This document shows positions 28,951 to 40,781 of a stretch of 40,781 bases of DNA, one piece after another. Each line of letters opens with the position of its first letter. Positions within the stretch are counted from its first letter, which is position 1. The DNA comes from a virus. The notes under the pieces were generated by a model. The model made no database searches and was not told where the DNA came from. It worked only from the letters and a program-made list of their open reading frames with translations. The position numbers and the translations under genes are program-made. The DNA lies in IMG/VR virus record IMGVR_UViG_3300032073_006283, positions 1 to 40,781 of that record; one strand, 5' to 3'.

Positions 28951-29676
28951 TTCTGACGCAGGAATGTCTTCCCATCTTTCCCAGCCGCTAATATCTTCGT
29001 TTCTATATTTTTCTTCTCTCCACCAATCCCTTAAGACGTGTTTGAAATCGTCAAATGATGCGCAGTTTAGTTTGTTTTGTGCTGCAGCACTAAGTATCGA
29101 GTGTGGCGTTAATCCAGAATTTTGAGCCATTTGGGTTTCCTTGGGCTTGTTGTTTTTGTTGATTTCATCATCTCCAACGATATGAACATTTAAAAAGTTT
29201 CTTACGCATCGAACAAAAGCTCTGTTGCACGCTATCGTTTCAAGGAAAATTTGACCGAAATCGCTGGTGTTGTGGATTGTTGCGTTGGCCATGTCTTGAA
29301 ACACTACTTGGTTGCCTCCTGTTTCATAGTTTGGTATGAATGTGATTCTGCAAATGACCGCCACATGATCATGCTCGCATTTAACTGTTTCATAATGAAT
29401 GTCCGAAAAGCCTCTTAACCTTGCGAGTTCTTTTATGCCGCTAAGTTTGATAAGAAGCTGGTGATCTTTTAGGCCTTCGATGGAATTCGGCATGTCCATT
29501 TTTCTCATTTTGAACCAATCTCTATTCGGAAATAGATGTGAGGGATCGATCATTGCTCGCCAGTTAACCGAGCCGTCTGTATTAAATTGATAGTCTGCGT
29601 TTTCTAAGAGCCCGTGTTCGTTTCTTAAATATACATTTGGGCCATAGTCTTTCTTGGATTTAGTTTTTGTTGTCAT
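28918..29676 (-). CDS. Possible Rad52/Erf-like ssDNA annealing protein
   Basis: A 252-aa soluble protein. The central region (~75-170) has the general pattern of single-strand annealing proteins: a hydrophobic strand set (HDHVAVICRITF), then ATIHNTSDFGQIFLETIACN and the helix NRAFVRCVRNFLNVHIVGDD, in which a charged, Arg-containing helix precedes a DE-type turn. The resemblance is weak and the family assignment is inference. The C-terminal ~70 residues (SILSAAAQNKLNC, then a Trp-rich DWWREEKYRNEDISGWERW) look like a small separate domain. The N-terminus is Lys-rich. It is the last gene of the minus-strand series, overlaps the previous gene by 17 nt, and its 3' end overlaps the giant fibre gene by 33 nt. 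A recombination role would fit the nearby SSB-like and NrdA genes. Confidence 0.4.
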   Translation of the reverse strand: MTTKTKSKKDYGPNVYLRNEHGLLENADYQFNTDGSVNWRAMIDPSHLFPNRDWFKMRKMDMPNSIEGLKDHQLLIKLSGIKELARLRGFSDIHYETVKCEHDHVAVICRITFIPNYETGGNQVVFQDMANATIHNTSDFGQIFLETIACNRAFVRCVRNFLNVHIVGDDEINKNNKPKETQMAQNSGLTPHSILSAAAQNKLNCASFDDFKHVLRDWWREEKYRNEDISGWERWEDIPASESRVLLKLVNG

Positions 29677-30835
29677 TTTTAAAAATTTTGTAATAGTCTA
29701 TTTCTTGATAAAAAACTTCGTTGTTGATTATTTTATCTATGTTCTGTTTTTCTATTCCTAAATCGAGTGCCGACTTGCATGGGTAAATTTTATTGTCCTT
29801 GATAATGTTGAGACTGGATTCATAGTATGTACAATTATCGCATAATTCCTCTGGATTGTCAAGATCTTTTTTTGATAGCTTTTCATGTTGATAAATATTT
29901 TGATGAAAGAATTTTAATCTAATTGATGATATATTTTCTCCTGCATAAAGTAATTTAAATTTTATTCCTGTTGATATAATTTTATGAATAAATTCTTCTG
30001 ATGTATTGTCTGATATATATAAATATATTCTCTTGATGTTGTGTTTGTGTTTTATTAAGATGTCTAGTTCTATTTCCTTATCTGAGAATATGGTACATTT
30101 GTATTGCGAAAGCCAAGTCTCTACGTTATACGGCGCATCTGTATAATCTAGCCTTAGGTTTACCAAGCTTCCTTCGGATATTTGTATGTTGCTTGGCGGA
30201 CCACACTCGGGAACAACGTCAATAACTTGAGTGTGAAAAGACCTGCCGAGGTGAACTGGCTTGTTTTGGTCATAGGGGTTGTTGAGGTTTAGTAATCTCA
30301 AACATTCGCTTGCCACATAGTCGGGAAATATTTCATCTACTCTTTTAGGGTCTTCTTTAATGGCAAAAGAAGGTTTTCTATATGAGTAATCTGGCGATAT
30401 AAGCGACTGTATTCTTTCGTCTCCCCAGTATGGCTTGCAGGTGTTTGCGATTACTGGACCGTATAGCGCTACCACGGGCGTTCTGTAAAAGGCTGATACG
30501 TGTGTCGAGAAAGAGTCGTTGCCGAGGTGTAGTATTGCGTTTTTGAGGATAAAAAAAGTTTGTCTTAATTGCGTTTTGCCGAGAAGACTTTCTGTCCCTT
30601 TAATTTTTGGATCGTTTTCTTCTCCTATTTGAAATATTTTTATGTTTTGCTTTTCTAGTTCGGGTTTTATTAGTTTAATTACATTTTCGAAATAAGAATA
30701 ATTCTTTGACGCCATGCCTGAGCCTCCGTGAATAGTTATGTATTTCTCCGCCTCCATTGGGTAGAATAAGGGTTCTATGTGCGGCTGAGATATTTTGCAG
30801 CCCGCAGTTAATGCGTAGTTTTCTATTAGGTGCAT
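29660..30835 (-). CDS. GT9-type glycosyltransferase, C-terminal half, with a cysteine-containing C-terminal extension
   Basis: A 391-aa protein. Residues ~1-185 match the C-terminal Rossmann half of heptosyltransferase-like GT9 enzymes (YITIHGGSGMASKNYSYFEN, then HLGNDSFSTHVSAFYRTPVV and ALYGP), which binds the sugar nucleotide. The N-terminal half of the fold is missing and is found at the end of the upstream gene. The ATG lies 10 nt inside that gene (ATGCACCTAA), one base back in frame, so the two halves could arise by stop-start coupling, by frameshifting, or from an old indel. The rest (~190-391) is not recognised; it has a C-x2-C pair near 332-335 and another Cys near 354 (YPCKSALDLG), a pattern reminiscent of SPASM-type metal sites, though weakly. 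It overlaps the downstream gene by 17 nt. Confidence 0.75.
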   Translation of the reverse strand: MHLIENYALTAGCKISQPHIEPLFYPMEAEKYITIHGGSGMASKNYSYFENVIKLIKPELEKQNIKIFQIGEENDPKIKGTESLLGKTQLRQTFFILKNAILHLGNDSFSTHVSAFYRTPVVALYGPVIANTCKPYWGDERIQSLISPDYSYRKPSFAIKEDPKRVDEIFPDYVASECLRLLNLNNPYDQNKPVHLGRSFHTQVIDVVPECGPPSNIQISEGSLVNLRLDYTDAPYNVETWLSQYKCTIFSDKEIELDILIKHKHNIKRIYLYISDNTSEEFIHKIISTGIKFKLLYAGENISSIRLKFFHQNIYQHEKLSKKDLDNPEELCDNCTYYESSLNIIKDNKIYPCKSALDLGIEKQNIDKIINNEVFYQEIDYYKIFKNDNKN

Positions 30836-32778
30836 AGGTCTAGTGAAATTTTATCCAAACCGTTTCTGGTATAGTTTAAAACTCTTTGGTTGTTGATATG
30901 TAGCAGGATTGCTATGTCAAATACGCCCTCTGAGTCATCTCTGTCGGGCCTGCCGCTAAAACCTTCAAGGCATATTGCGTCATGGCAATCTGGCGTGAAT
31001 GGCAAAACCTTATGTATATATGGGTTTCCGTCGAGTACTTGATGATATTGCTCTTGGCATATAAAATATATGTTGTAATCCTTATATGTGTTTTTTAAGT
31101 CTGGTAATAGGCTTGTTGCCATAAATATGTCTCCTATGCTTTTAGGGAGGACTAGCGCTAACCTTCTGCCCTTGTCTGAGTCGTTCAGGTATTGAGATAT
31201 GTCTGTTTCTTTTTTTTCGTTAGATTCTGTTTGTCGCTTTGCGTTGTTTTTTAATGCTTGAAATATTTTTTTTCTAGATGTTCCGTTTTGAATTTTTTTT
31301 ATAAGAAACTCAAATACCTCTGAGTGTTTTCTGAGCTGTACTTTCAATAGGTTGTTGTATGTTTTTAATATAAACTCTTCGTCATTACAGTCCTGAGGCA
31401 TGGGGTAGTTGAGATTTGGTTTTAAATATTCCGCGTCAATCTTAAACTTGTCTGTGACGTCCATGTTGTCTATAATTTTCATTAGCTTTTCGGCCGAACT
31501 CTCAATTGAGTAGTTTTTTATGACAAAGTCCCTGGCGGTTTTACCGAAGTAAGATTTTTTTGAAGAATTCATCTTATAGGCTTTGGTGAGCTTGCTGGAT
31601 ATACTGTGCGGGCATGTGCTTGCCTTTACGAATTGTGTTCCGGGTTCTCTGTATTCGTTCCATGAAAGGGGCATTCCTCCTGAGGCCTCAGAAGAGCAGT
31701 CTGTGCCGCAGCTGTAGTCGGTGACCAACGTAACTAGCTCGCAGAGTTTTGCTTCTTGTATGGGCAACTCTTGACCTCCTGAAGTAAATGGATGGCAGTA
31801 TACATCCATTAAGTTATATATTTCGTTTAGTTGTTTTTCGCTAGGGCCCACGTGAACACTTGACGTATTTAATGTTTGTTTTTCTCCGCATAGCGGGCAG
31901 TCTTGTTTCTCTCCGTCTTTTTTGTTATCCGACTGAAAGGGTTGAACTACATAATCCTTGCATTTTTCACAAAAATAAGTTGTTAGTATGTCGTTGTTAT
32001 TTATTTCTTTTTCCTTTATAAGTTTAGGTATATCCCATCCTTCTTGCCAATTTGTGTGCAGTAATAGTTTGGCTCTGCATTTTGGGTTGCTGTTTTTGAA
32101 TTTTTTAAATCCATCTAGCAGGTTGGGCACACTTTTTCTTAACTGATTTCTGAATACAAAGCCTATAATAAAGTCGTCTTTATTTATTTTATGCCTGGCT
32201 CTTAATTCTTCCCTTGGCTCTTTGTTGAGTTTAAAGAAGTTTTCATGGTCAATTGGACCATGTATACATTCTGAGTTTGTAACCCCTGCGTCTGAGAGTT
32301 CTTTTTGGGCAAAGTTAGACCATGTGATGAATCTATCTGTGTTTCTCGCAGTAGAAGCTGTCGTATCTAATATTGGGGTTGAGTCTAGGGTTACCCATAG
32401 TATTGTGTTTAGGTGTGACCACCAAGGCTTTTCGCAGAAACCGTTAAATGCCCATATGTCTTCAGACCCTATGTATATATCAGGCTTTTCTTCTAGGATG
32501 ATTTCATCAATTCTTAAGTGTCCGTATCCAGCTCGGCTTTTTATAGAGTTGTTTTCATCACATTTTTTTTCTATCTGTTTATCATCTGGGAAGCTACCTC
32601 TGCATTTCCACGGAAAAAGTTCTAGCGCTGGAGAGTTTTCTTTAACCCCGTTGGCAACCTCAACTATGTCATATTTTCCTGTTTTAAATAAATAGGATAA
32701 AATGTTTTTAGTGTTCTTGCCAAACCCAGTAAATACCCTAGAGCAATTGCTGTGGTATAGAATTTTTTTTTTAGACAT
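30826..32778 (-). CDS. GT4 glycosyltransferase with inserted zinc ribbon, fused to GT9 N-terminal half
   Basis: A 650-aa protein. Residues ~1-430 are a GT-B, GT4-like enzyme: N-terminal SNCSRVFTGFGKNT, a GFVFRNQLRKSVPNLLDGF strand-helix, and the EX7E-like region with GGQELPIQEAKLCE. Within it, at ~268-300, is an insertion with two CxxC pairs (C270/C273 and C294/C297), a likely zinc ribbon. After a linker, ~535-650 resemble the first Rossmann half of GT9 enzymes (RLALVLPKSIGDIFMATSLL, then NPYIHKVLPF). The ORF ends in LDKISLDLCT, just where a GT9 would enter its second domain, which is supplied by the overlapping downstream gene. The start overlaps the upstream stop by 1 nt (TAATG). Substrates are unknown; host surface glycan, virion protein or other acceptors are all possible. 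Confidence 0.75.
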   Translation of the reverse strand: MSKKKILYHSNCSRVFTGFGKNTKNILSYLFKTGKYDIVEVANGVKENSPALELFPWKCRGSFPDDKQIEKKCDENNSIKSRAGYGHLRIDEIILEEKPDIYIGSEDIWAFNGFCEKPWWSHLNTILWVTLDSTPILDTTASTARNTDRFITWSNFAQKELSDAGVTNSECIHGPIDHENFFKLNKEPREELRARHKINKDDFIIGFVFRNQLRKSVPNLLDGFKKFKNSNPKCRAKLLLHTNWQEGWDIPKLIKEKEINNNDILTTYFCEKCKDYVVQPFQSDNKKDGEKQDCPLCGEKQTLNTSSVHVGPSEKQLNEIYNLMDVYCHPFTSGGQELPIQEAKLCELVTLVTDYSCGTDCSSEASGGMPLSWNEYREPGTQFVKASTCPHSISSKLTKAYKMNSSKKSYFGKTARDFVIKNYSIESSAEKLMKIIDNMDVTDKFKIDAEYLKPNLNYPMPQDCNDEEFILKTYNNLLKVQLRKHSEVFEFLIKKIQNGTSRKKIFQALKNNAKRQTESNEKKETDISQYLNDSDKGRRLALVLPKSIGDIFMATSLLPDLKNTYKDYNIYFICQEQYHQVLDGNPYIHKVLPFTPDCHDAICLEGFSGRPDRDDSEGVFDIAILLHINNQRVLNYTRNGLDKISLDLCT

Positions 32779-36775: not shown

Positions 36776-37642
36776 TTAGATATTTTTTATATCTTGCAGC
36801 CAGCCAGCTTCTTGCGATTTTAGTTTGTCGTATTTTCTGTAGCTACATGTCCATATTGATCCGAGCATTGTATTGATTGGTACTATTTCGAAGTTGTTTT
36901 TCATTATTTCCTTTGATTTATAGTCTTTTGTTTTTATTCCTCTGCTTCTGAGTATTGAGTGGCATATTAATTGTTCTGGAAACGAGTAGTTTAATATCCT
37001 TTTGTTTTTGCATTCTCTTATGGAGGTTTCGAAGGCTGATTTCATAAAGCACTTGACGGCGCCTATTATGTGGTCAGAAATGTGAAACTTTTCCTCTTTG
37101 TCCGCCCTAAAAAATATGTCGCTAGTGAAAAATTTCGCGTTTTCTTCTGAGTGAAGATTTTCTTTAATTTTTTTATAAAAGACATCAAGCCTTGGGTATA
37201 TCTCGTCTGACCTTACCTTGATACATATATTTCCCGTGGAGCTTTCGATACCTTTTAGTGTTGTGTAATTTTGCAATATCCATGGGGCTGCTCCCCTCGA
37301 GCCTGTTTTATGTATGTACTCTGGAATTTTTGATCGATGGTTTTTTACCAGCTTGACTGCATCATGTTCCTTGAAGTTTTTAATTATCTTTTCGTTGTCG
37401 TTATCCCAGTAGGATACGACTACCTCACCCATTACTTTTCCGTCGAACTCTACTATGTGCTGGAGCTTTTCTACTATTTTAATATAATGCGGAAGCGATT
37501 CGTTGAGCCTTTCGTGAAGCGGCCCTTGAACAACTATACTTAGGGAGTTCTCTAGGGATTCCATTTTGGGGAGTAGAGATTTCCAGAACCTAAGTAATTC
37601 TTCGTTATTCATATTAAATAAGTTTGTCCGCACAAACTCCAT
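36776..37642 (-). CDS. WavE-like lipopolysaccharide glycosyltransferase
   Basis: A 288-aa protein with the pattern of WavE-type (lipopolysaccharide core synthesis) enzymes: LSIVVQGPL near residue 34-42, VVVSYWDNDNEK (~74-85), a conserved Asn-aromatic region, then LKGIESSTGNICIKVRSDEI, in which the RSDE sequence looks like the acidic metal/sugar-nucleotide site. These proteins are thought to transfer sugars in surface-polysaccharide synthesis; the donor is unknown. The first ATG (37642) lies 29 nt inside the GDPD-like gene; a second ATG at 37612 (MNNEELL), just after that gene's stop, is an alternative start. It is the last gene before the nrdA promoter gap. Confidence 0.75.
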   Translation of the reverse strand: MEFVRTNLFNMNNEELLRFWKSLLPKMESLENSLSIVVQGPLHERLNESLPHYIKIVEKLQHIVEFDGKVMGEVVVSYWDNDNEKIIKNFKEHDAVKLVKNHRSKIPEYIHKTGSRGAAPWILQNYTTLKGIESSTGNICIKVRSDEIYPRLDVFYKKIKENLHSEENAKFFTSDIFFRADKEEKFHISDHIIGAVKCFMKSAFETSIRECKNKRILNYSFPEQLICHSILRSRGIKTKDYKSKEIMKNNFEIVPINTMLGSIWTCSYRKYDKLKSQEAGWLQDIKNI

Positions 37643-38036
37643 AGCAATCTTGAAACTGCATGTACTTTGCGCTATCTGTTACTACTACGGATTTTTCGCA
37701 CACCTTGCAGTGTGGAAATGTCCATATAAACCCTTGGGACGTTAGTGCGTAAGCGTCGTTTTCGTGCCAAAAGACATTTAGCTCTGGCAGGTCTGAAAGG
37801 GTGGATAGCGCAAATACGTTTTTACAGTGAATCCATAAGGAGTTGTGGAAACGCATAAGAAAATCTAGGTCTATTTCGTGCTCAGGGTTGTCGTGTCCCA
37901 AATAAAGTCCATCTTGGTACCATACGTCAATCTCAACGTCAAAACCTGCATGTATAGCTTCCTCTATGTAGCTAGGTTGGTTTTCTTTGCTTTTGTTAGC
38001 CCCTTTGTAGTTCCCTCTGTGGGCGATTAGTTTCAT
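37614..38036 (-). CDS. Short GDPD-like phosphodiesterase domain protein
   Basis: A 140-aa protein with the N-terminal catalytic signature of the glycerophosphodiester phosphodiesterase/PI-PLC-like superfamily: His6-Arg7 (LIAHRGN), Glu35-x-Asp37 (VEIDVW) and His48 (LGHDNP). Canonical GDPD proteins are about 240 residues or more with a full TIM barrel, so this is a compact relative; short relatives with WIHCKN and FWHENDAY segments occur beside nucleotidyltransferases in surface-polysaccharide loci, from memory. It may cleave or sense a glycerophospho-type substituent, but the substrate is unknown. The start is fixed by HRG at position 6. It overlaps the HAD-nucleotidyltransferase gene by 41 nt and the WavE-like gene by 29 nt. 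Confidence 0.75.
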   Translation of the reverse strand: MKLIAHRGNYKGANKSKENQPSYIEEAIHAGFDVEIDVWYQDGLYLGHDNPEHEIDLDFLMRFHNSLWIHCKNVFALSTLSDLPELNVFWHENDAYALTSQGFIWTFPHCKVCEKSVVVTDSAKYMQFQDCYGVCADKLI

Positions 38037-39402
38037 GGTTTTGTAAAAAATAAGCTAGGTCTTCCGGGGTTCCTAAGCCCCACATTGATTCCTCGCTAAT
38101 ATTGAAGATTTTGTATTTTCCTCCATTATATATACACTGATTGTATACTGGGCAAACGTAGAACTCATTGTTTGTTCTTATGTTTTTGCTGATCATTTCC
38201 TCAGCCCCTGATACGTAGTCCGAGCCTTTCTTGAAGTAATAAACTCCTACAGTAGCGTGATCGCTTATGACTTTTTTTTCTGCGACCTCTGTTACGAATC
38301 CATTATCGCAAAGCTTTGCATAGCTCCACTTTGGGTGGCAAGACGGAAATGTTAGTATTCCTCCGTCAATTTCATCTCCGATCATTGAGTACATAAACTG
38401 GTTGCTGTCCCAATCTAAGTATTGATCAGAGTTTGCTATCAATAGCGGTTGGTCGTTGTTGATTAAGTCTTTAGCTAGAAGCGTGGTGCATGCTGCGCCC
38501 TCAGTCATTCCGTCAACTTGTATAATTTTGCAGTTTGGGGCTATTAAGTTTAAGGTGTGTTGCAGTGAATATTTTTCGTAATGCGATTTTTGGACTATAA
38601 ATATATAGTTTGCGTTTATATTTAGACTATCCACAACTGTCTGGATCATTGGTTTGCCCTTCACGTCAATCAAGGGCTTCGGGAATGAGTAGCCTGCTTG
38701 CTCAAACCTGCTTCCTGCCCCCGCCATTGGAACAAGAATGTTCATGCCCTCGCCTTCCCATTTTGTTTTTTCGTACGGTTTGTTTTCTATTTTATTTATA
38801 TAGTTCATAATTTTTTCATAAGTTAAGTCTTCTGGGTCTTTGATAGCCCCAAGGTGTGCTCCTGAATTTAGTACAGCCTCCCTTCCCTTGTTGGAATCTT
38901 CTAGGATTAGCGTGTGTCTAGATGGTATTCCTGACTGTATCATAATTCTATAATACATTTCGGGGTTAGGCTTTGGCCTCAGCACGTCTTGGTTTGACAT
39001 GATGTGCCAAAAGTAATGAAGAATTTTTTTGTGGTGAAGAGCCGTAATGATACTCTCTCTTACGGAATTTGAGGCTACCGACATCTCTATGCCTTTTTCT
39101 TGGAGCCTGCGTAATATGGAGTTGAGTTTTTCGTCTCTTTCGTAGGTCTCCATCATGGCAAGAGTAATTCTTTGTTTCTTTTTCCATATTTCGTCATACG
39201 CCTCTTTGGGTAAACCTTTGTTTTTCGTTAGCAACTCAAGCTTTCTTGTCGTAGGTAGTCCGTCGTATGTTGATAAATGTTCTTCTTTTGAGATGCTGTA
39301 TTCTGGGCAAACGTTATTTATTGCTCCGTTGAACGCCTCGAAATGTAATTCTCTTGAATTTATTAAAACTCCGTCTAAGTCAAATATGATTTGTTTGATC
39401 AT
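37996..39402 (-). CDS. HAD phosphatase fused to sugar nucleotidyltransferase
   Basis: A 468-aa bifunctional protein. Residues ~1-205 are a HAD hydrolase of the phosphoglucomutase/phosphoglycolate phosphatase type: Asp8 and Asp10 (FDLDGVL), a SVASNS motif near 112-117, a conserved Lys in RPKPNPEMY (~148) and LEDSNKG (~171-177). Residues ~220-455 are a nucleotidyltransferase: VPMAGAGSRF near the start (nucleotide-binding loop), FPKPLI, and NSDQYLD as the metal-binding Asp-containing motif. It would plausibly dephosphorylate a sugar phosphate or polyol phosphate and activate one with an NTP. An internal ATG opens the second domain at 38745, preceded by ggaaggcgaggg, so a separate shorter product is possible. 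It overlaps the next upstream gene by 4 nt and the GDPD-like gene by 41 nt. Confidence 0.85.
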   Translation of the reverse strand: MIKQIIFDLDGVLINSRELHFEAFNGAINNVCPEYSISKEEHLSTYDGLPTTRKLELLTKNKGLPKEAYDEIWKKKQRITLAMMETYERDEKLNSILRRLQEKGIEMSVASNSVRESIITALHHKKILHYFWHIMSNQDVLRPKPNPEMYYRIMIQSGIPSRHTLILEDSNKGREAVLNSGAHLGAIKDPEDLTYEKIMNYINKIENKPYEKTKWEGEGMNILVPMAGAGSRFEQAGYSFPKPLIDVKGKPMIQTVVDSLNINANYIFIVQKSHYEKYSLQHTLNLIAPNCKIIQVDGMTEGAACTTLLAKDLINNDQPLLIANSDQYLDWDSNQFMYSMIGDEIDGGILTFPSCHPKWSYAKLCDNGFVTEVAEKKVISDHATVGVYYFKKGSDYVSGAEEMISKNIRTNNEFYVCPVYNQCIYNGGKYKIFNISEESMWGLGTPEDLAYFLQNHETNRPQRELQRG

Positions 39403-40190
39403 TTTATTTCAATTGAGTTGTGTCCTTTGTTGCGCCATTTTTTTCCGTCTTTAATTAATACAGTTTTTATGTTTCCGAAAGAATTGGTGCCTGTGAGTTG
39501 TTTGTATTTGCATTGCTGTAGGTTGAGGCACATTGTCATTACTGATTCAGGCACTTTAATCATGTATTCTGGGTACCCGCTTTCCCACATGATGCCTATG
39601 GCGGTTGCCATGCTTGATAAGGAATTAGCGTATTTGTTCATTTGGTCTGGATGTCCGATTGCGAGTTGATCGTTGATTTGGTTTGGTAGGGATGCTTTTT
39701 CGTTTATGAAGCTAAAACTAAATTCATTTTTAATTTCTACTTCATGATTATAGATATTAGTACTCTCAAATAATGGTAGCCTGATATGTTTATTTTTTAA
39801 ACAATCTTTTATTTCGTGCTTTTTTATTTGCTCTAATACTTGTATGTCTGGCCTAAGCCTTATCACTAAGTCGTAATTATTTTTTTTTAGTAAGGCGTAG
39901 TTCTGGAATATGGTGTTTGAGGCTTTGATTCCTGCAAGCATTGGTATTAGTCCTGCGTTTGGTTGGCATGGAAGATTGCCTGTGGGCCCCAAGAATTTCA
40001 TCGTGTCTTCGAAGTTTAAGATCTGCTGTTTGACTGGCTTGTAATGTTGACAGAAGTCGTAGGACGGCTGATCGTCCCAGGTTGTGACAAATATATCAGG
40101 CTTTAATGGCCATATAATATTCTCAAAAATTGACTCATAGCAATCTTTCCAGTTGCCTAGTTTGCCGCTAAACCATAGCGCAACTTTCAC
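39399..40190 (-). CDS. Glycosyltransferase-like protein of the surface-glycan cluster
   Basis: A 263-aa protein without signal peptide. It begins with MKVALWFSGKLGNWKDC and has a D-I-F-V-T-T-W sequence (~32-38), a start typical of GT-A-like surface-polysaccharide transferases, which often open with a phrase like 'I-A-x-x-x-S-G-x-x-R'. YDLVIRLRPDIQ near residue 105-116 supplies a possible acidic donor-binding site. I cannot name a precise family; a WavE-like relative is possible because a similar RxRxD sequence occurs in the WavE-like protein nearby. It starts 4 nt inside the upstream GT9-like gene and overlaps the HAD-nucleotidyltransferase gene by 4 nt, so it belongs to the same transcription unit. 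Confidence 0.6.
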   Translation of the reverse strand: MKVALWFSGKLGNWKDCYESIFENIIWPLKPDIFVTTWDDQPSYDFCQHYKPVKQQILNFEDTMKFLGPTGNLPCQPNAGLIPMLAGIKASNTIFQNYALLKKNNYDLVIRLRPDIQVLEQIKKHEIKDCLKNKHIRLPLFESTNIYNHEVEIKNEFSFSFINEKASLPNQINDQLAIGHPDQMNKYANSLSSMATAIGIMWESGYPEYMIKVPESVMTMCLNLQQCKYKQLTGTNSFGNIKTVLIKDGKKWRNKGHNSIEIK

Positions 40191-40781
40191 TCTTGCAGCC
40201 TCCTTATGATGAGAGTTTTGTCGATTTCGCTTTGGGTTAAATGAGGGGCAAGTATTAAGTTGTTAGAGTTGATTAGGTTTTGCATGCATTCAACAAGGTA
40301 TTTTGCGTCGTGCTGTAATGGAAAAATTAAAGAAGGGAAGGTCAGCCATCTCATCTGAAACGCTGGCAGACAGGAGTGCGGTTGTTTACTTTCTTTTGCC
40401 CATGTTAGGGTGGGCTTGTTGAACGTGTATCCGAAGTATTTTATACCAGAGTCAATTGCAAACATTCCTGCGCAACCTTTTACTAGTCTAATAACTTCTG
40501 TGATATTTTTTTCATAAATTTTCACCCGAGAGTCTTCTTTGAAGTTTGCTCTGATAAAACCTTTGGTTGACTTGGTTGACAGCACGAAGATGTCGTAAAT
40601 GCTAGGAATATTGTTTATTAGTTCGTTTAGGTATTTTTTTGACATCCTATGGTTATTTGCTAGGTTGTCTGATGCTGCATGTATAACAAAATATGGCCTC
40701 GGGTTTGTGTGTTCAAAAATCTTCAAGTGGGGCTTCGGGTAGTGATAGAAGTATCTTTGCCAGTCGAAATCATAATTCATC
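40187..40781 (-). CDS. GT9-like glycosyltransferase half domain (runs to or starts at right edge)
   Basis: At least 197 aa. The ATG at 40780 is one base from the window end, so the gene may extend further and this Met may be internal. It resembles the C-terminal Rossmann half of heptosyltransferase-like proteins: PYFVIHAAS (~28-36), a R-x-S-KKYLNELIN helix, IFVLSTKSTKG (~64-74), and VIRLVKGCAGMFAIDSGIKY (~91-110), in which a Ser-Gly replaces the usual S-x-x-x-H. It has the same family resemblance as the GT9 half at 29660-30835 but is not a close copy. The N-terminal half could lie to the right of the window. It shares a 4-nt overlap with the next gene. If it really starts at 40780 it would be another GT9 half protein. 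Confidence 0.55.
   Translation of the reverse strand, partial: MNYDFDWQRYFYHYPKPHLKIFEHTNPRPYFVIHAASDNLANNHRMSKKYLNELINNIPSIYDIFVLSTKSTKGFIRANFKEDSRVKIYEKNITEVIRLVKGCAGMFAIDSGIKYFGYTFNKPTLTWAKESKQPHSCLPAFQMRWLTFPSLIFPLQHDAKYLVECMQNLINSNNLILAPHLTQSEIDKTLIIRRLQE

Follow-up and report, generated by a model that had tools for sequence, protein, structure and literature searches.

What does a virus achieve with a tightly packed set of genes that seems fit to activate a sugar and to transfer it, and which of these genes belong together? This question is raised by a gene cassette on the minus strand of IMG/VR viral record IMGVR_UViG_3300032073_006283, which was analysed over its entire length (40,781 bases, 40% G+C; hereafter the window). 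An initial annotation had proposed five overlapping genes at positions 36776-40781, and five minus-strand open reading frames (ORFs) are indeed present there, with overlaps of 29, 41, 4 and 4 nucleotides (nt) between adjacent ORFs in ascending coordinates; the 29-nt overlap hinges on the annotated start of the ORF of 288 amino acids (aa), a start that varies among relatives. ORFs were called mechanically, so that small or frameshifted genes may escape. In reading direction, the cassette runs from a truncated 197-aa protein end through a 263-aa protein, a 468-aa fusion of a HAD domain with a nucleotidyltransferase (NTase) and a 140-aa protein resembling glycerophosphodiester phosphodiesterases (GDPDs) to a 288-aa WavE-like protein:

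40187-40780, minus strand: truncated transferase-like gene (ORF call; C-terminal 197 aa, ending at the contig edge)
39399-40190, minus strand: predicted GT-A-fold glycosyltransferase gene, resembling GT6 (263 aa; ORF call and model)
37996-39402, minus strand: HAD-NTase fusion gene (468 aa; HAD about residues 1-208, NTase about 219-460)
37614-38036, minus strand: short GDPD-like gene, predicted miniature TIM barrel (140 aa; structure model)
36776-37642, minus strand: WavE-like transferase gene (288 aa; relatives match PF07507)

All five genes recur in the same order in the related locus L007, and four of them stand in order in L075 before that contig ends. As this gene order recurs, the cassette is a genuine gene set and no chance run of ORFs. 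L075 (RFXU01000199.1) is a 3.4-kb contig binned as Flavobacteriaceae; its NTase domain is identical to that of viral locus L015 over the columns used, which together with its phage-like gene order suggests that it is probably phage DNA despite its bin. A PADLOC search with the five cassette proteins returned no match.

A conserved pair of genes in viral loci

Collection of loci with the fusion as starting point revealed the short GDPD in 66 of 71 phage or viral loci (L001-L071), and in 69 of 74 when three loci found through the GDPD (L072-L074) are added; this set includes near-copies, and L072 and L058 are one contig. The short GDPD was found directly after the fusion, directly before it or several genes away. 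Searching from the GDPD instead, an NTase (>100 bits) was detected nearby in 74 of the best 80 among at least 590 GDPD loci, fused to a HAD domain in 55, accompanied by a separate HAD in one and without HAD in 18. As this linkage persists despite changes in gene order, it points to a shared function, and the HAD-NTase fusion together with the 140-residue GDPD-like protein constitutes the truly conserved module. Across 111 loci, no neighbour was commoner than the GDPD, with 82 loci and a further 15 cellular ones carrying the full-size form; next came the 263-aa GT-A family in 50, an epimerase family in 35 and the WavE-like family in 23.

The module also occurs in isolate phages, with the fusion present over at least 80% of its length in eleven Synechococcus phage records and the short GDPD in 16, and S-PRM1 having both; in cyanophages, the annotations of neighbouring genes name epimerases, GT11, GT25 and further glycosyltransferases, and in some cases heptose enzymes. 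In a related phage, an HpcH/HpaI-type aldolase gene, its family named via the relative L027, and a CMP-sugar-synthetase-like gene stand just ahead of the fusion (L049:8675-10008), possibly hinting at a second, acidic sugar.

Domain and active-site assignments of the module proteins

The description of the 468-aa protein as a phosphatase-nucleotidyltransferase fusion was borne out by profile searches, in which residues 5-184 matched HAD_2 (Pfam, E 4.4e-27) and residues 219-459 matched PHROG 3980 (1.7e-73). Among PDB entries, the NTase half matched 4evw, a 'nucleoside-diphosphate-sugar pyrophosphorylase' (3.5e-18), as well as 5xhw and 6jq8, proteins of the 6-deoxy-mannoheptose pathway. Its matches to Pfam NTP_transf_3 (1.3e-4) and to an NCBIfam RmlA-like model (2e-10) fell below and well below the cut-off, respectively, and with a value of 0.011 for Pfam IspD it is less alike to that family than to sugar-1-phosphate enzymes. 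Models for specific enzymes, the NCBIfam equivalogs, scored far under their cut-offs (e.g. rmlA_long, 40 vs 320 bits). The HAD half is nearest to beta-phosphoglucomutases (bPGM) in PDB matches and alignment. Judged from these comparisons, the NTase appears closest to sugar pyrophosphorylases and the HAD domain to sugar-phosphate enzymes.

An alignment of 20 fusions showed HAD residues D8, D10, H20, K76, K144, E168 and D169, which align to bPGM, to be unvarying; the Asp pair, hinge His20 and cap Lys76 presumably take catalytic roles. Equally unvarying are G228, G230 and R232 (G-x-G-x-R loop), P241-L244 (PKPL) and N324-Q327 (NSDQ) of the NTase half, and we take the G-x-G-x-R, PKPL and acidic NSDQ motifs to be hallmarks of sugar-1-phosphate nucleotidyltransferases of the RmlA/HddC type. 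By eye, no Arg occupies the alignment place of the phosphate-binding Arg49 of bPGM, and the bPGM equivalog model gives the fusion 68 bits against a cut-off of 189. As Arg49 is not retained, a phosphatase or another mutase is as likely for the HAD domain as a beta-phosphoglucomutase.

The short GDPD-like protein of the window has no match in Pfam (PF03009) or NCBIfam, belongs to PHROG 34507 ('unknown function') and yields a lone PDB sequence match at E 1.2. Its GDPD label was nevertheless upheld by structure. The AlphaFold model (34 relatives) reached a pLDDT of 96 and a pTM of 0.90, and VIA-align placed solved GDPDs on top (1vd6, 1o1z; Z 10.4, 133 of 140 residues, 3.1-3.4 Å), with nearly all top rows being GDPDs or GDPD-like phospholipases. 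The best Foldseek match was likewise a GDPD, at an E-value of only 0.019. In profile comparisons, the family hit a GDPD of solved structure at 9.6e-4, and the match to the full-size GDPDs found in the bacterial module had a probability of 97.6%; four of 13 of the latter match PF03009 themselves (best 7.6e-16). The protein is accordingly modelled as a compact TIM barrel of the GDPD type.

Residues H6 and R7 (HRG), E35 and D37 (E-x-D) and H48 and D49 (HD) are invariant in 34 aligned rows, and the three motifs are overall invariant or nearly so in short GDPDs; we assume catalytic roles for the HRG and HD histidines and take the E-x-D pair to bind metal. The aligned solved GDPDs 1o1z, 2pz0 and 3no3 carry a further E-x-K strand, whose E is presumably the third acidic metal ligand. 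At this position all 34 phage rows have H-x-K (H70 in the short GDPD), while the 13 cellular full-size GDPDs of the module have N-x-K in nine cases and H-x-K in four. Judged from these alignments, the module GDPDs share an active-site change. A short GDPD with an N-terminal extension that is SGNH hydrolase-like by eye was also observed (L021:19103-20176).

Where the NTase is not fused to HAD, a RuBisCO-like protein (PF00016, 2.7e-34) often adjoins it. After redundancy removal at 90% GDPD identity, 101 viral loci remained, and the protein was found in 2 of the 75 with a fusion and in 12 of the 25 without HAD, with one extra locus carrying a separate HAD; the Fisher p of 3.4e-7 overstates independence, as the loci bearing it are partly related by descent. 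Examples are L064:10657-11907, L073:6764-7999, L092:2888-4078 and related loci, drawn from marine viral contigs and, in two cases, from SAR11. The four RuBisCO-like sequences inspected all contain the KPK and K-x-D-E motifs. In some loci this protein apparently stands in for the HAD domain, an exchange that favours a sugar phosphate as the substrate of the module. A protein of about 105-113 aa, cupin-like by eye, is often found beside the module (e.g. L091:10144-10485, L073:6444-6767) and is commonest where there is no fusion (16 of 19 vs 12 of 55); one member scanned against Pfam had no match.

Cellular loci, transferases and surroundings of the cassette

A scan of GTDB contigs for the fusion or its unfused parts revealed loci in SAR11, Prochlorococcus, Legionella, Balneolaceae, Brevundimonas, Rhizobium, Arenibacter, Burkholderiales, candidate-phylum bins and a Micrarchaeota bin; L075-L108 were used as bacterial relatives of the module, and L109-L154 match over the HAD part. 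Polysaccharide loci of SAR11, Prochlorococcus, Brevundimonas, Rhizobium, Arenibacter, candidate-phylum bacteria and one archaeal bin contain the fusion-GDPD pair or GDPD-HAD-NTase with a full-size GDPD, and several cellular loci have consecutive genes for a full-size GDPD, an unfused HAD and one NTase or two; Brevundimonas diminuta is among the species with the module. Of 34 cellular loci, 11 + 15 have a GDPD at a distance of up to 6.5 kb, the 15 having the full-size form. The neighbours read as capsule export, flippase, rml, glycosyltransferase and other polysaccharide genes, where names reflect a reading of the translations unless a family search is cited; WavE matches flank the module in L085 and L096. 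Of 197 SAR11 genomes, nine gave a match to the GDPD profile, six of these a strong one, and the fusion adjoins the GDPD in five of the six. The linkage between GDPD and NTase is tight in phages and bacteria, and the co-occurrence in other phages and bacterial polysaccharide loci for which the initial annotation had called was found in both, with no homologues placing the genes in unrelated pathways.

In the NTase tree, phage and cellular rows interleave with 16 label changes against a minimum possible of 3, some branches being long and unsure; such mixing would be expected if phages and hosts exchange the module. Some alphaproteobacterial and related loci (L100:8621-10795, L102-L104, L106) carry NTase domains in tandem, of which the first has a changed glycine loop.

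The 263-aa GT-A, 288-aa WavE-like and truncated proteins are grouped under TRANSFERASES. The AlphaFold model of the 263-aa protein (pLDDT 90) has a Bacteroides ovatus GT6 as its best Foldseek match (2.1e-7) and aligns in VIA with 4ayj (Z 12.4, 3.6 Å, 198 aligned residues, 11% identity). The second transferase of the initial annotation is accordingly modelled as a GT-A-fold glycosyltransferase nearest to GT6, a family of which the enzymes resembled use UDP-sugars. The GT6 Pfam model matched none of the 12 family members scanned, one of which matches DUF7796. For the 288-aa protein, the WavE label stood through its relatives, as six of ten aligned family members match PF07507 (best 3.6e-10), while the window protein itself has no such match in the Pfam scan; the protein would belong near WavE. 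A PF07507 search of six viral records found the family in one, and profile comparison of the GT-A and WavE-like families indicated no relation (probability 0.3%). The truncated protein is 76% identical to a 308-aa protein of L007 over the shared part. Its earlier GT9 label found no support, with no Pfam match, PF01075 included, in any of ten family members, and it is called GT9-like here by inspection only. A tblastn search of isolate phages gave no match for the GT-A, WavE-like and 252-aa proteins.

The 252-aa protein is encoded elsewhere on the minus strand of the window, together with GT9 and GT4 genes, a 178-aa protein, a trypsin-like protein (PF13365) and an 814-aa protein that reads as a ribonucleotide reductase. 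Plus-strand genes extend as far as 28950 and include very large proteins of 4092 and 1799 aa, which from size and position read as tail-type. The GT4/GT9 genes that had been noted near the cassette are present:

30826-32778, minus strand: 650-aa GT4 protein with the N-terminal half of a GT9 domain at its end (PF00534, 1.8e-7; NCBIfam heptosyltransferase I, N-part at 540-594)
29660-30835, minus strand: 391-aa protein beginning with the C-terminal half of GT9 (PF01075, 4.4e-8, profile 166-222)

The GT9 domain is thus apparently split across two overlapping genes (29660-32778), an arrangement conserved in relatives, and these genes may act jointly with the cassette. As the related contigs L010 and L012 (about 205 and 211 kb) share these surroundings, the marine phage of the window is probably large.

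Proposed function and relation to known systems

We consider it rather probable that, in the course of infection, the cassette produces a nucleotide-activated sugar and attaches it to a surface polysaccharide of the host, i.e. lipopolysaccharide (LPS) or capsule. The HAD domain would trim or isomerise a sugar phosphate, which the fused NTase would couple to a nucleotide, while the short GDPD would contribute an accessory step, its substrate being an intermediate of this pathway that is phosphorylated or of phosphodiester type. The GT6-like, WavE-like and GT9-like proteins would then transfer the sugar onto a host surface glycan. The altered surface would most plausibly block binding by rival phages, in line with the proposal in the excerpt of a pelagimyophage study (PMC7029224). 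The genes themselves and the linkage of GDPD to NTase are established, and the folds of the GDPD and the GT-A protein are high-confidence predictions; we infer substrate, nucleotide, order of the steps, GDPD reaction, acceptor and benefit to the phage.

Several observations weigh against this reading. Five of the 71 fusion loci (L019, L042, L043, L044, L061) and two Legionella loci have no GDPD, and six of the best 80 GDPD loci lack an NTase, four of them within about 0.7 kb of a contig end; this count, moreover, covers the best 80 of at least 590. As the E of E-x-K is replaced throughout the phage rows, the activity of the short protein may differ from that of a GDPD. The WavE-like (23/111) and GT-A (50/111) partners are far less constant than the GDPD, so that the acceptor probably differs between loci. 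Finally, dS was saturated in 38 of 46 pairs overall in the comparison of nonsynonymous (dN) and synonymous (dS) substitution rates.

The same comparison bears on the suggestion that the genes came together by accident or serve as filler to maintain genome length, which we regard as highly improbable. Its precedent is the question, left open in the excerpt of PMC3037559, whether the LPS genes of cyanophages have a function or are stuffer DNA. For the fusion, dN was 0.08-0.22 and dS was saturated in six of ten pairs; the four usable pairs gave a dN/dS of 0.023-0.047, next to 0.029 for the reductase in its one usable pair. Such low values argue that the fusion is not idle filler, and the catalytic residues are invariant over 20 and 34 rows, while the linkage recurs despite changing gene order. 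The stuffer-DNA suggestion made in 2010, as worded in that excerpt (PMC3037559), does not fit the module. A virion or DNA target, with the cassette glycosylating tail fibres, other virion proteins or phage DNA in place of the host surface, would fit the very large tail-fibre-sized proteins next to glycan genes in the window. We consider it improbable, given that the same module lies in bacterial polysaccharide loci; no DNA-base hypermodification genes were seen in the window, although no model search was aimed at them.

A phospho-linked decoration appears unlikely too, if less so. Here the NTase would make a CDP-polyol or CDP-amine, the GDPD would yield the precursor from glycerophosphodiesters, and a transferase would move the whole phospho-group in the manner of teichoic-acid-like capsules or phosphocholine LPS. 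Two Legionella carry the fusion right after a LicD-family gene (PF04991, 4.1e-43; L080 by similarity), and GDPDs can yield choline, as the excerpt of PMC10434233 describes for GlpQ in the Lic-1 pathway. However, the Legionella LicD query matched no other viral or cellular locus searched, the NTase resembles sugar-1-phosphate enzymes more than IspD, and neither a kinase nor a choline transporter was noticed in the window. Of the initial annotation, the idea of a unit that makes and transfers an activated sugar is thus supported by linkage in both search directions, the bacterial polysaccharide loci, the GT-A fold and the WavE-like protein, while its phospho-linked product is only hinted at by the LicD gene of two Legionella, and no evidence pointed to virions or DNA as the target.

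Returning to a sugar destined for the host surface, we tentatively propose, with less confidence than for that function itself, that the sugar NTase and a re-tooled miniature GDPD form the fixed core of an undescribed sugar-nucleotide pathway that spans phages, SAR11, cyanobacteria and further bacteria as well as at least one archaeal bin. The replacement of E by H or N at the metal site would serve a new reaction required whenever the NTase acts, and the processing enzyme would be exchangeable, usually a fused HAD and otherwise a RuBisCO-like protein with intact KPK and K-x-D-E motifs. The function of marine phage LPS-type genes has been an open question since at least 2010 (excerpt of PMC3037559). 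The module is a compact, clearly bounded unit of two proteins and about 600 residues that is conserved widely and testable in vitro. Two PHROG families that lack an assigned function, phrog_34507 and phrog_3980, gain a candidate one, and the module points to a surface-sugar pathway, as yet without a name, that is common to phages, SAR11 and other bacteria. In searches of open-licence literature, no title or abstract beginning among the papers listed names the module; subscription journals lie mostly outside this set, so that absence is not established.

Among known systems, the pathway for CDP-6-glucitol of Campylobacter jejuni HS:5 also employs a sugar-phosphate nucleotidyltransferase for capsule (excerpt of PMC10918830). 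It was rejected as a lead, having a separate NTase and reductase, and 'HAD' and 'phosphatase' have 0 occurrences in the text. The Lic-1 system (LicABCD and GlpQ) is similar in that a nucleotidyltransferase, a GDPD and a transferase cooperate, and in the LicD gene beside the Legionella fusion; the module differs by a HAD instead of a kinase and by a sugar-type NTase, with LicD occurring here only in Legionella. Membership in Lic-1 was likewise rejected, as the LicD query matches only L079 and L080 and no LicD was found among nine window proteins scanned with Pfam. For the glycosyltransferases of marine pelagimyophages, a role in modifying the O-chain of the host and stopping coinfection has been proposed; unlike the cassette, their clusters comprise mainly GT8, and the text of PMC7029224 mentions no nucleotidyltransferase.

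A further parallel is provided by the large LPS clusters of T4-like cyanophages (P-SSM2, S-SM2, S-SSM7), which according to the excerpt of PMC3037559 likewise combine phage-borne sugar-nucleotide and glycosyltransferase genes. S-SM2 contains relatives of both the short GDPD and the NTase. In contrast to these phages, the window phage has no close isolate by tblastn of its GT-A, WavE-like and 252-aa proteins, and no heptose genes were noted in the window. With such clusters known and the module genes not unique to the window phage but present in Synechococcus phages too, the initial suggestion of an undescribed system beyond the usual phage glycosyltransferases is not supported in that form. 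The excerpt of PMC3037559 does not name the HAD-NTase-GDPD module. With PF03009 GDPDs, the short GDPD has the TIM barrel and the HRG, E-x-D and HD motifs in common, whereas it differs in length (140 aa vs 217-278 for most aligned) and in carrying H-x-K in phages, and N-x-K or H-x-K in the cellular module, for E-x-K. Phage-borne LPS clusters are thus already known, while the NTase/short-GDPD core, its altered site and the exchange of HAD for a RuBisCO-like protein are apparently unnamed.

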